A DNA stretch of 64,000 bases, from assembly GCF_020166515.1 (NCBI RefSeq), contig NZ_JAINZT010000009.1:62001-126000 (forward strand). Direction: 5' to 3'. Position 1 is the first letter of the stretch; every line of letters starts with the position of its first letter. The notes beneath the pieces are model-generated. The model did not search any database and had not been told where the DNA came from. It saw only the letters and a program-made list of their open reading frames with translations. Shown here piece by piece: positions 10,605-14,148 of this stretch. A program made the position numbers and the translations under genes. This DNA is from Robertkochia flava (GTDB taxonomy: Bacteria; Bacteroidota; Bacteroidia; Flavobacteriales; Flavobacteriaceae).

Positions 10605-11762
10605 ATGAAATTTTTATACCCTTTTTACCTGCTTCTCTTATTTACCGGTTGTTCAAAAAGTGAGGGGGAAAACCTTGATGGAAATTCTACGAGGCTTCCC
10701 GTTGTATCGGCTATTGCGTATACGTCAGATCAAAATATACCGAATTCAGAAAAGGAAGTTTATCATTACACGCTAAGCGCGAATGGCCAGGCAGAGGTTA
10801 CTGAACCCCTTAATACAAATTTTGATATTGGAGCAGATTACCTGCATCTGAGGAGGAATGACGACAAACTGACTTTTTTTTACCGGAACTCAGCATTCCC
10901 GGATAATTACCGGTTTTCAGAATATTTCTGCGACTCAGGTAAGGTGAACTGGTATGACCAGATCTGCAGCAGTGCTCCAATTGCCAGTTCTGACTTTTAT
11001 CCTTTGGCATCCCTGGAAAACACAATCCATATCACTCACGAAACCATTGATGGTTCCTATCATTTTTACCTTAATATCATGAGAGGGGACGAATCCTGCG
11101 AACGAATTTTTATGGGCCAGGCCTCCGGGGTGGTAAACGACTACCATTTTCAATCCATAGACGAAAAGTTCTACTTCTATTATCCTGATAGCGATACCAG
11201 CAGGAGACTCACACAGATCGACCTGCAAAATGCTGCTATCACGAACAGCATTGAAATTGAAAGACCATTCCGGGGTATCATTACAAAAGAAATGATTCAC
11301 CTCTACCTCGATAACGGAGTGCACAAAACCATTTCCACAGACGCGTTCACGGTTTCAAATGCTGCATCCTACACCTCCGGCGCAGAAAGGGTTCTTGCAC
11401 CAGGGTTTACGGAAGTCAAACTTCTCACCCCGGACCAGGCGCTGATCAAAAATAGTATTCCTTACCCCTCACCAGGTGCGCTGAGTGATGGACCGGCAAT
11501 ATTGGAATTATCAGACCTGAGTCTGTCAAGAGGAGAAAATGGATTCATGTACGATCTTCTTCGAAAAGCCGAAGAAGAGCTTATGGCCGGGATTAACTTC
11601 ACAAGTTACACCTATGACCCCCTATCACAAACCGTAGTAGTTGGTTACAATCAACTTAATAATGAAGGATACTCCGGTGGAGTTATCTATGGAGATTTTG
11701 AAGGGAACCTTAAACGTATCGAACCTCTGCCAGTTTCACCAAAACACCTCTGGATCGAATAG
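10605..11762 (+). CDS. Hypothetical lipoprotein, probable beta-propeller
   Basis: A 385-residue protein with a lipoprotein signal (MKFLYPFYLLLLFTGCSKSE; lipobox FTGC, Cys about 16), so probably anchored in the outer membrane or periplasm. The mature sequence is a run of short beta strands separated by polar turns (for example LTFFYRNSAFPDNYRF and KFYFYYPDSDTSRRL), with no catalytic motif I recognise. The pattern would fit a propeller but this is only an impression. It stands alone, between the DUF885-like gene and a long gene-free stretch. The start is fixed by the signal peptide and by the inverted repeat immediately upstream. Confidence 0.65.
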   Translation: MKFLYPFYLLLLFTGCSKSEGENLDGNSTRLPVVSAIAYTSDQNIPNSEKEVYHYTLSANGQAEVTEPLNTNFDIGADYLHLRRNDDKLTFFYRNSAFPDNYRFSEYFCDSGKVNWYDQICSSAPIASSDFYPLASLENTIHITHETIDGSYHFYLNIMRGDESCERIFMGQASGVVNDYHFQSIDEKFYFYYPDSDTSRRLTQIDLQNAAITNSIEIERPFRGIITKEMIHLYLDNGVHKTISTDAFTVSNAASYTSGAERVLAPGFTEVKLLTPDQALIKNSIPYPSPGALSDGPAILELSDLSLSRGENGFMYDLLRKAEEELMAGINFTSYTYDPLSQTVVVGYNQLNNEGYSGGVIYGDFEGNLKRIEPLPVSPKHLWIE

Positions 11763-11945
11763 TGATTATCAGCCCCATCCCTCATTTCTGGCCCATCATG
11801 CATCTGCAGTCGTTTCTCAGTCACCATCCGTTCAAATGATTTGGCAAATGATCCGAAGACCGTTTAGTCCTAACGGTTTAAAATCTTTACCTCTTCCCAA
11901 AGCAGCTACATTTTGTCGTTGCTTTTTCTAACTTCATTCTGTACC

Positions 11946-12180
11946 ATAAAAAAAGGCCACCCGAATGAGCGACCTTTTCACTAACCAACCAATAAACTTA
12001 AATAATCAAAATCAACTTCAAATTATGAGATCGTATCCCCGGTTCCAAAGGGGGGCAGGAACCGGTTTCTTACCTCAAGTAGGATAAGTGATATCTTTAT
12101 GCAATCGAGAGAAGCATCCTTTAAAAAACTTTCGTCTTTGTTCTTTGCTCCTGACTCTTTGCTCTTTTTCAAAATTTCAA
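11946..12180 (-). ncRNA. Candidate small RNA, copy 1
   Basis: Read on the minus strand, the unit looks like a free-standing RNA gene. A Bacteroidota -7 box TATATTTGC lies at 12193-12185 next to a TGCATGCA palindrome, so transcription should begin near 12178. The RNA would be about 230 nt. It contains a perfect 8-bp stem, CCGGTTCC/GGAACCGG (12039-12046 with 12058-12065), closing an 11-nt loop with six C residues (TGCCCCCCTTT). A purine-rich 5' segment and an AU-rich segment flank the stem. The 3' end is a terminator: AAAGGTC pairs with GGCCTTT (one G-U pair) followed by a T run to 11948. The longest start-codon frame in it is only six codons (12117-12097). The -33 element is not clear. I know of no named family that it matches. 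Confidence 0.5.
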
Positions 12181-12204
12181 CAGTGCAAATATACTATGCA
12201 TGCA
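11946..12204 (-). repeat. Direct repeat copy 1 (about 259 bp), sRNA-like
   Basis: The first of two almost identical copies (other copy 12471-12730). By eye they differ by one substitution (acccg versus accca near the start) and one single-T indel, and share every other base. The sequence similarity fades after TGCATGCA, although a shared CTTGTAAAAAAC continues about 16 nt further. The copy contains a minus-strand promoter box, a GC hairpin and a terminator (see the ncRNA entry). Confidence 0.9.
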
Positions 12205-12470
12205 CAGTTTAATACTTGTAAAAAACAAAGATTAAATTGCTGATTATGTGTCCTTTACAAATCATCTGTATATGATTTATATTTTTTTGGTGCATACGGT
12301 AATAGCTGAGAAACAGACGATTAAGGATGGATGATGATAGATAACACAGAAATCCCATTTGTACCAGAAACACCCGTAGTACATCAAAGATCCGGTTACA
12401 ACTAAAATTTCACCAGAGGAGTTGATCTTACATCTTTGTTTTTTTTGACTTTGATCCTTCATCCTGCCCA

Positions 12471-12705
12471 ATAAAAAAAGGCCACCCAAATGAGCGACCT
12501 TTTTCACTAACCAACCAATAAACTTAAATAATCAAAATCAACTTCAAATTATGAGATCGTATCCCCGGTTCCAAAGGGGGGCAGGAACCGGTTTCTTACC
12601 TCAAGTAGGATAAGTGATATCTTTATGCAATCGAGAGAAGCATCCTTTAAAAAACTTTCGTCTTTGTTCTTTGCTCCTGACTCTTTGCTCTTTTTCAAAA
12701 TTTCA
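12471..12705 (-). ncRNA. Candidate small RNA, copy 2
   Basis: Same architecture as copy 1: TATATTTGC box at about 12719-12711, hairpin arms CCGGTTCC 12565-12572 and GGAACCGG 12584-12591 with the identical C-rich loop, and a terminator hairpin ending in a T run near 12473. The sequence upstream of the promoter box differs from copy 1 (CCTATGCATGCATAG versus CTGTGCATGCATAG), so the two copies could be regulated differently. Confidence 0.5.
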
Positions 12706-12730
12706 ACAGTGCAAATATACTATGCATGCA
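12471..12730 (-). repeat. Direct repeat copy 2 (about 260 bp), sRNA-like
   Basis: Second copy of the repeat at 11946-12204, same orientation, 525 nt downstream. Preservation covers the promoter box, hairpin and terminator as well as the linkers, which indicates either a recent duplication or sequence homogenisation. Confidence 0.9.
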
Positions 12731-13215
12731 TAGGATTTATCTTGTAAAAAACGAGGTTTAAATTTCTTTTTACCTGAATAACAGTTAGATACAACCTTTT
12801 CTTCTATATTTTGGCAGTCTGAACCAGGGCATACGGACCTCCCTGGATACGGCAGCCTTAAATTCCCCTTATCCGGAAAGATCAAAAATGCAAACCCATC
12901 CCGTTACTTAAATAACTCGCACAAAACAAATTTTCAATTGAATGAAGGGATGTCATATTGTTACCTCAGCCCATATGGCCAGTGCAGTACCCCTGCCCTT
13001 GTCTTCAGGTCCAAAATCATGAAGGTTTACAATGCGGTGAAACGATCTATTATCGGTCATCCGGATTGGATAAACATGCGTAACGTTCCAGACATTCCGG
13101 TTAATCGTAATTGCAAGAAAATCTGCATATTCCTGTTTTCATTCTTTAAATTGTAACGAAAAGCTTACAATAAATACCTATAAATGCAATCAATCATCAA
13201 TCAAAAATTAAATTC

Positions 13216-14148
13216 ATGAAACGTACAGAAAAGATAGTGTTCCTTCTTTTGGGAGTCACACTACTTATTATTTACCCCAATACTTCCAGCTTCCCGGCTT
13301 TCTGTGCCTCTGCATTTACGGTACTGTCAGGAATGCTGTTCTTTGCATTAAATACCCAAAAGGGAATTTGCCTACTCTCCCAAAGAAAGGGAAGTAACTT
13401 CTTCCTGCAAAACCTGCTTCCTTTCCTGGTTTGCTATGGTGTCGCGCTACTCCTGAACGTATGGTATTGGATGAGCTTTTCTCCTGATGCCAGTTTTAAA
13501 TGGCGTTATCTGCTGGAGTCATTTCCTCACAAGGAATCTGCAATGCTTCCGGTCTTGTATACACTTGGACTGTTCTACGGTTATCTGCGTCCCCATATGA
13601 AAGCCGTTAAGGTAACCCTGGCCGCTGTTGCTGTCCTGCTTATATCAGGATTTATATACCTCAACATTCCGGTTGAAGACCGCCTTGCAAAAAATGAAAA
13701 TTACCACATCATCACACAGGAAGTTCAATCTATCGATGCATTGATCAAACAACCTCAATTTAAAGACAAGACCCTGTATATAGATCTATGGTACAGCAGT
13801 TGTTCTCCTTGTGTTAAACAATTCAAGGAGTATCTTCCGCAATTGAAGAAAGAAATAACGAAACAGGGAGTATCGGTGGAATATATTTACCTGGCGCGCG
13901 AAACCAGTCATCCGGATTCTAAGCAACGGTGGCGAAATGCAATAGAGAAATACGAACTCAAGGGTTGGCATTACTATTTTGTTAAAGAAAAGGCTCAGGG
14001 CTACTGGGATGAAATAACACGGGAACTCCATCCAGGATTCACCGCAGGCTACCCACATTATCTAATAGCAAAAAACGGAAAGATCGTCTCTTATAATGCA
14101 CCATATCCGGAAGAAGTAGCGTCGGTTCTGAATCTCCTGAAGCCTTAA
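13216..14148 (+). CDS. Membrane-anchored thioredoxin/TlpA-like protein
   Basis: A 310-residue protein. Residues 1-150 contain about four to five hydrophobic segments (about 7-20, 26-46, 66-84, 112-124, 133-149). The C-terminal half is a thioredoxin-like domain with the redox motif CSPC at residues 196-199, in the context YIDLWYSSCSPCVKQFKEYLPQL, followed by the typical later strand-helix elements and HYLIAKNGKIV near the end. The domain probably faces the periplasm and reduces or exchanges disulfides, as TlpA/ResA proteins do, but the multi-pass N-terminal half is unusual for those. No cytochrome or cofactor genes are adjacent. The gene runs convergent to an S41 peptidase gene, with a shared terminator between them. 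Confidence 0.75.
   Translation: MKRTEKIVFLLLGVTLLIIYPNTSSFPAFCASAFTVLSGMLFFALNTQKGICLLSQRKGSNFFLQNLLPFLVCYGVALLLNVWYWMSFSPDASFKWRYLLESFPHKESAMLPVLYTLGLFYGYLRPHMKAVKVTLAAVAVLLISGFIYLNIPVEDRLAKNENYHIITQEVQSIDALIKQPQFKDKTLYIDLWYSSCSPCVKQFKEYLPQLKKEITKQGVSVEYIYLARETSHPDSKQRWRNAIEKYELKGWHYYFVKEKAQGYWDEITRELHPGFTAGYPHYLIAKNGKIVSYNAPYPEEVASVLNLLKP

Follow-up and report, generated by a model that had tools for sequence, protein, structure and literature searches.

A multiplied small RNA gene family of Robertkochia and its candidate arrayed RNA partner

The 64,000-nucleotide stretch of Robertkochia flava DNA analyzed here (hereafter the window) carries two near-identical minus-strand units which, judging by sequence comparison, are almost certainly members of a paralogous family of free-standing small RNA genes. 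This family appears, as far as tested, to be confined to Robertkochia, a genus of marine bacteria. Its two best-conserved parts are complementary to a second RNA, found in arrays and here called RNA2, with which the family likely pairs. We lean, if only narrowly, towards the view that the family is expressed conditionally and acts, in this genus alone, as a sponge or antagonist of RNA2. To our knowledge, small-RNA control has been little mapped in Flavobacteriia.

The two window copies are direct repeats at positions 11946-12204 and 12471-12730, with a spacing of 525-526 bp. They are 99% identical over approximately 262 bp and 96.6% identical over 291 bp once extended. The bounds of the repeat (approximately 11932-12246 and 12457-12772) lie slightly beyond the ends given in the initial annotation, which had correctly placed two near-identical minus-strand units in an intergenic gap. 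Predicted transcripts of approximately 235 nt span 11946-12179 (copy A) and 12471-12705 (copy B) on the minus strand, with starts inferred from the promoter box TATATTTGC (12185-12193 and 12711-12719, minus strand). Each copy contains a hairpin, HP2 (12039-12065 and 12565-12591, minus strand), in which the 8-bp stem CCGGTTCC/GGAACCGG (12039-12046/12058-12065 in copy A; 12565-12572/12584-12591 in copy B) closes the loop UGCCCCCCUUU (12047-12057 and 12573-12583) with CCCCCC inside it, and each ends in a putative intrinsic terminator (11946-11978 and 12471-12504, minus strand) with T tract ends at 11948 and 12473. The box, the 8-bp stem, the six-C loop and the terminator of the initial description were all located in both copies on the minus strand. 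As read from the sequence, a promoter of its own and an intrinsic terminator are present in both window copies and in most of the homologs shown. A 242-nt stretch of copy B gave a folding z of -2.7, and the C loop of the window RNA is predicted to be unpaired (P = 0.99).

Five Robertkochia genomes were compared: that of the window itself (G000), G001, G002, R. marina (G003) and Robertkochia sp. 3YJGBD-33 (G004). A covariance model built from eight family members (R1) gave 19 matches in all five (three, one, two, five and eight, respectively) and none in 35 genomes of other genera. A second model built from 19 rows (R2) and run with stricter filters on 249 Flavobacteriaceae genomes matched only the two Robertkochia genomes among them and none of the other 247. 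Both models were built on family members, and their scores are hence not independent. The third copy in the window's own genome is found at positions 710039-710153 of contig C6, while six tandem units approximately 169 bp apart occur in G004 (L017, 625-1609; L084, 3753-4704). A DNA search with copy B across 60 genomes found relatives in all four other Robertkochia genomes; it also matched four genomes outside the genus (G028, G036, G038 and G053), with alignments of only 24-48 nt. Two of these short matches were inspected and rejected as family members, one being a terminator (L007) and the other a tail plus terminator (L008).

In the main class of members, the core follows the order ATAT-YR-CUUAUCCUAC-UUGAGAUAAG, HP2 with its C-rich loop, GAUCUCAUAAUU, tail and terminator, and members of a second class carry CUUAACCUA. 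Conservation is highest in two parts, a 5' CUUAWCCUA(C) segment, referred to here as the seed, and the loop with GCCC or a close variant. Six seed positions (C, U, A, C, C and U) are invariant across 15 aligned rows and the remaining positions vary slightly; one divergent member has the seed CUUGACCUGC, and one unit (L016) has neither the seed nor the C-rich loop. HP2 loops include, besides the window's UGCCCCCCUUU, the sequences GGCCCCCAAAA, AAGCCCUAC and AGCCCUAAAC, and the U-rich tail ends in UUGGUUGGUUA in most copies. In the window copies the tail, AAGTTGATTTTGATTATTTAAGTTTATTGGTTGGTTA, lies at 11982-12018 and 12508-12544, and HP2 is enclosed by an outer helix, P0, between the 5' arm UGAGGU (12072-12077) and the 3' arm AUCUCA (12026-12031) in copy A and between 12598-12603 and 12552-12557 in copy B (all minus strand).

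HP2 stems vary in sequence among the copies yet stay paired. The hairpin was found in 20 of 21 members, the exception under the rule used being the home-cluster 3' untranslated region unit of G003. When the HP2 flanks of 16 members were compared, own-pairing scores summed to 107 against a maximum of 103 in 20,000 permutations; this test omits five home-cluster or divergent members, and multiple C runs were resolved to suit own pairing, which gives a slight bias towards own pairs. In an alignment of 19 rows (18 distinct; A6) that was fitted to the structure before counting, 85.2% of cells were paired compared with 62.5% when shuffled, both sides changed in 13 of 14 pairs, and none of 500 shuffles reached any of five measures. 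A conserved secondary structure with compensatory changes is present by these sequence-based measures, and the compensatory stem changes that had initially been proposed as a check were found in alignments of Robertkochia members. The expectation that relatives would keep the stem, loop and promoter held for most of them, with the exception of some related units of the same clusters that lack the C-rich loop. The hairpin is conserved in its pairing and not in its stem sequence; what is conserved in sequence is the loop and the 5' CUUAWCCUAC segment.

A non-functional repeat, either a small mobile element or a decaying duplication, would suit a unit that is multi-copy, dispersed, and duplicated in both the window and G004 (six units). 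This origin is next to impossible in our judgement, being at odds with the compensatory stem changes, the conserved loop and seed, the shared promoter element and the terminators. Mobile elements and spacer decay were rejected because the stems covary, in agreement with the initial suggestion of a transcribed unit, and the proposal of a free-standing small RNA gene is well supported by the homologs in all five genomes of the genus, most of which retain the promoter, the tail and the terminator, together with the compensatory changes. Neither the terminal inverted repeats nor the transposase of a miniature inverted-repeat transposable element or insertion element was found at the window copies, and a Pfam scan of four nearby open reading frames (ORFs) assigned two to other families and gave no match for the other two (385 and 552 amino acids).

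RNA2, the candidate partner, is approximately 75 nt long and was found by a genome search for the complement of the seed with one mismatch allowed. Its units form arrays of AAGTAGGTTAAG; in four genomes the spacing of most units is approximately 215-235 bp, and in G001 it is wider. The five Robertkochia genomes hold 32 units in total (six in G000, five in G001, seven in G002, eight in G003 and six in G004). The core CACCATARCATAAGTAGGTTAAGTTCATGGTAAGATTTGGGGCAA is identical in all 32, and a TANNTTTA box lies upstream of 31 of them. The array of G000 falls on two contig ends (C1:120325-121643 and C6:88; L196 and L201), and the arrays of the remaining genomes are at L197-L200. In R. marina, the gene before the array encodes a glutamine amidotransferase domain, and a GFO/IDH/MocA oxidoreductase gene converges on the array from the other side; ORFs of similar length flank the arrays in G002, G004 and G001. 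Across the family Flavobacteriaceae, the 31-nt core of RNA2 (up to three mismatches) was detected, often in multiple copies, in 104 of 299 Flavobacteriaceae genomes and 86 of 236 genera, with no match for the reversed control. A single unit gave a folding z of -4.2, and scans of the five RNA2 arrays gave no Rfam match at the cut-off.

RNA2 complements both conserved parts of the family: its hairpin carries AAGUAGGUUAAG and its linker AUUUGGGGCA. The window seed, CTTATCCTACTT (12077-12088 in copy A and 12603-12614 in copy B; minus strand), is the complement of AAGUAGGUUAAG save for one U-U. Within RNA2, GUAGG in the hairpin loop and GGGGCA in the linker are predicted to be unpaired, so that the family would complement exposed parts of another, presumably regulatory, RNA. 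For 14 of the 20 members tested, no more than four of 300 shuffles bettered the seed pairing with RNA2. Among 6955 own-genome windows tested against 13 seeds, three matched the pairing of RNA2, all of them on the antisense strand of the window gene. The loops of 19 members are predicted to pair with RNA2 at a total of -221 kcal/mol compared with -124 kcal/mol (standard deviation 10) when shuffled; none of 2000 loop shuffles matched the former value, and the loops also beat all of 500 site shuffles. The order of the bases in the loops therefore counts in addition to their composition. The initial annotation had proposed that the C-rich loop could pair with G-rich stretches in mRNAs; a G-rich candidate was indeed found, but the best one is in another small RNA and not in an mRNA. 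Titration of RNA2 would explain why both parts are kept while the stems drift, and also why a G precedes the loop Cs, where it could pair with the C of GGGGC.

Several observations weigh against the pairing with RNA2 and its interpretation as titration. Loop pairing with the reversed site is fairly strong (-170 vs. -221 kcal/mol), and base composition therefore explains part of the loop match. Considered individually, 13 of the 19 loops outperform 95% of their own shuffles, the loop is not special by dinucleotide shuffles, and 353 of the 6955 genome windows pair with the loops as well as RNA2 does. When seed and loop are summed, six of the 6955 windows are as good, of which two are self-antisense and four are not. 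At the seed, six of 20 members pair poorly, and the window's own seed has the U-U mismatch and is only partly unpaired (0.41). Complements of the seed are not enriched in the five genomes (116 vs. 160 for the reversed control, with 18-28 matches per genome), nor are those of the loop (74 vs. 78). Part of the seed match reflects selection because RNA2 was itself found through the seed complement with one mismatch allowed, and the statistics overstate independence because the loops and paralogs are related. The two sites have the same 5'-3' order in both RNAs, and one pair of molecules could therefore not accommodate both helices in a simple duplex; if both sites were paired at the same time, this would have to be through a loop-loop complex or with two partner molecules. 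RNA2 also occurs in many genera in which no family member was detected.

The main alternative is a trans-acting family of paralogous small RNAs that pair with mRNAs, with the match to RNA2 being a coincidence or the sign of a shared target. The general build of the family, with its conserved unpaired loop, is that of known multi-copy small RNAs, among which the 14-member FopS family of Bacteroides thetaiotaomicron acts on mRNAs, including those of susC (PMC11697453). On the other hand, complements of the length expected from long duplexes were not enriched in the five genomes, a test that short seeds would escape, and two distinct sites in a single conserved RNA are unlikely both to match by chance. 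We consider this alternative unlikely on balance. A broad set of mRNA targets with long complements was rejected in the absence of enrichment over controls. FopS/GibS (PMC11697453) resemble the Robertkochia family in that they are paralogous multi-copy small RNAs from Bacteroidota that have a seed in common and end in a terminator, and they differ from it in two respects: they are characterized by a single-stranded 5' seed and a terminator hairpin only, whereas the Robertkochia family has HP2 and P0, and FopS acts on mRNAs, whereas the candidate partner here is another small RNA. FopS is reported there as deposited in Rfam (PMC11697453); no Rfam family reached its cut-off for the Robertkochia family, in a release (15) whose inclusion of FopS was not checked.

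We return to the reading of the family as an antagonist of RNA2, for which the promoter region suggests a route of control. The pattern TTTTNTACAA-N21-23-TANNTTTG has 16 exact matches in the five genomes and none for the reversed control. Eight precede members with the C-rich loop (two in the window's own genome, five in G003 and one in G004), five precede related units without that loop (in G000, where the unit is degenerate, G001, G002, G003 and G004), and the remaining three lie ahead of a gene for a small membrane protein (G000, G002 and G004). The exact pattern has no other occurrence in the five genomes, and most genes of the family share the element. Close variants of the element are found at members missing the exact pattern, such as the contig C6 copy and L034. 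The window contains 40 TANNTTTG boxes, and the full element (10/10) occurs at only two of them, which are the window copies; the next best scores 7. In these copies the upstream element reads TTTTTTACAA and lies 22 nt before the box (12216-12225 and 12742-12751, minus strand). An upstream near-palindrome, AGCAA-N4-TTGCT, was also noted by eye.

The membrane-protein gene encodes 140-152 amino acids and is divergent from an AraC-type regulator gene in all five Robertkochia genomes. Because the element shared with the family also precedes this gene, the AraC-type regulator is the likely controller of the family. Units with the same tail follow the membrane-protein gene in this home cluster, which has an AlkB-like 2OG-Fe(II) oxygenase gene at its far side in both genomes scanned there. 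The 3' hairpin of the membrane-protein gene has the loop GCCCUAAAC in G000, G001 and G003 and ACCCUAAAC in G002 and G004, and is scored weakly by R2 (E 0.006 to 0.21). Weak matches to the gene itself were found in eight genomes outside the genus; four of these loci were scanned and showed no tail pattern, with one GCCCAAA loop match (L130). The home-cluster units (L081, L082, L083, L084 and L085) share the promoter and tail and are without the C-rich loop, and could possibly belong to a wider superfamily with exchangeable middles.

In the proposed mechanism, the promoter element, probably under AraC-type control, would switch the family on; the family RNA would then make loop contacts with RNA2, at one site or at both, and the bound RNA2 would be titrated, releasing its targets from control. 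We infer the direction of control, in which the family acts on RNA2. A fuller version of this reading, to which we would give slightly less than an even chance, is a dedicated RNA-against-RNA system, in which multiplied, AraC-linked, loop-presenting RNAs recognize the conserved arrayed RNA2 at two sites while their stems drift and both recognition elements hardly change, and RNA2 is an uncatalogued core regulator of Flavobacteriaceae. If correct, these findings would define a genus-specific RNA family with a defined structure and promoter, and would draw attention to an arrayed RNA that is conserved (its core is present in 104 of 299 genomes) and for which scans of the five arrays gave no Rfam match at the cut-off. 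An older, widespread RNA countered by a sponge family that multiplied in a single genus would make a clear example of antagonism between regulatory RNAs.

The bacterial sponges SroC (for GcvB) and AgvB are single RNAs, either cut from mRNAs or phage-encoded. They are similar to the Robertkochia family in that each is complementary to a regulatory RNA, which it would titrate; unlike them, the Robertkochia RNAs would be the products of many related genes that share a promoter element of their own, and they would be directed against an arrayed RNA. A tandem arrangement of small RNA genes is found in cyanobacterial NsiR1. RNA2 and the G004 units are like NsiR1 in having several head-to-tail copies of a short RNA gene; no sequence relation to NsiR1 (PMC9045159) is claimed. 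Within the same bacterial family, the Rfp RNAs of Flavobacterium psychrophilum are described as independent small RNAs, of which Rfp18 is structured, conserved outside the species and predicted to pair with protease mRNAs via its third stem-loop (PMC9723704). The Robertkochia RNAs are likewise predicted to be independent small RNAs, a comparison made by description only.

No family of Rfam release 15, including 6S, tmRNA, SRP RNA and riboswitches, reached its cut-off in the family or in the RNA2 arrays. A scan of the window at the gathering cut-off returned one tRNA, elsewhere in the window, which agrees with the initial statement that no named Bacteroidota RNA family was known to match the repeat. 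Listings in the window region that fell far below cut-off (MicC, GcvB, isrF, STnc320 and others) were rejected. The same applies to CsrC at the terminator of L006 (23.9 vs. cut-off 61), ncS54 over the end of the L005 unit (25.7 vs. 43), BSnc120 outside the unit in L015 (24.2 vs. 114), STnc220 on the opposite strand between two array units (34.6 vs. 60), STnc430 outside the array in L200 (39.1 vs. 47) and Thr_leader outside the units in L081 (31 vs. 55).

The tail and hairpin could alternatively bind an RNA-binding protein, which the RNA would titrate. The tail end UUGGUUGGUUA is common to the home-cluster units that lack the C-rich loop, and a similar motif precedes terminators in 24 of 100 genomes of other Flavobacteriaceae genera, both of which would fit a protein ligand. 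We regard this as improbable, since the separate conservation of CUUAWCCUAC and the GCCC loop would be left unexplained. The motif in the other genera, TTTGGTTGGTTAGT (L095-L122; reversed control 0), occurs in two copies in G118 and three in G095. A TYGGCAY-N5/6-TTG site, which we take to resemble the sigma54 consensus, lies within 130 nt upstream of 25 of the 28 loci. These sigma54-like RNAs were rejected as relatives of the Robertkochia family, with which they have, by eye, only the pre-terminator motif in common.

The window copies are situated between ORFs of 385 (10605-11762) and 310 (13216-14148) amino acids. Short mechanically called ORFs without marked gene-like features also occur in this gap, including minus-strand ORFs of 54 and 76 amino acids between the copies. 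A role in cis, as the leader or attenuator of a gene downstream, would be consistent with the terminator at the end of each unit and with the location of these 76- and 54-amino-acid ORFs downstream of copy B. Copy A, however, faces the end of the convergent 385-amino-acid ORF, with no minus-strand ORF of at least 50 amino acids between them. Orthologs of window-neighbour genes are also near units in G002 (three) and G003 (one), and among the other loci tested the window neighbours recur at copies in only two, one in G002 and one in G003. A cis-acting role is very unlikely because the neighbourhoods vary.

Two further observations concern the window copies. Between the upstream element and the promoter box, copy A has the near-palindrome CTATGCATGCACAG (12194-12207) and copy B the palindrome CTATGCATGCATAG (12720-12733). 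The near-palindrome also occurs in L015 and L016/L019 and is absent from most of the paralogs shown. The palindrome is limited to some copies (those of the window's own genome, G002 and G003) and could be an operator. CUUAUC is able to pair with GAUAAG/GGUAAG a short way downstream, which would exclude P0 and raises the possibility of a two-state RNA.
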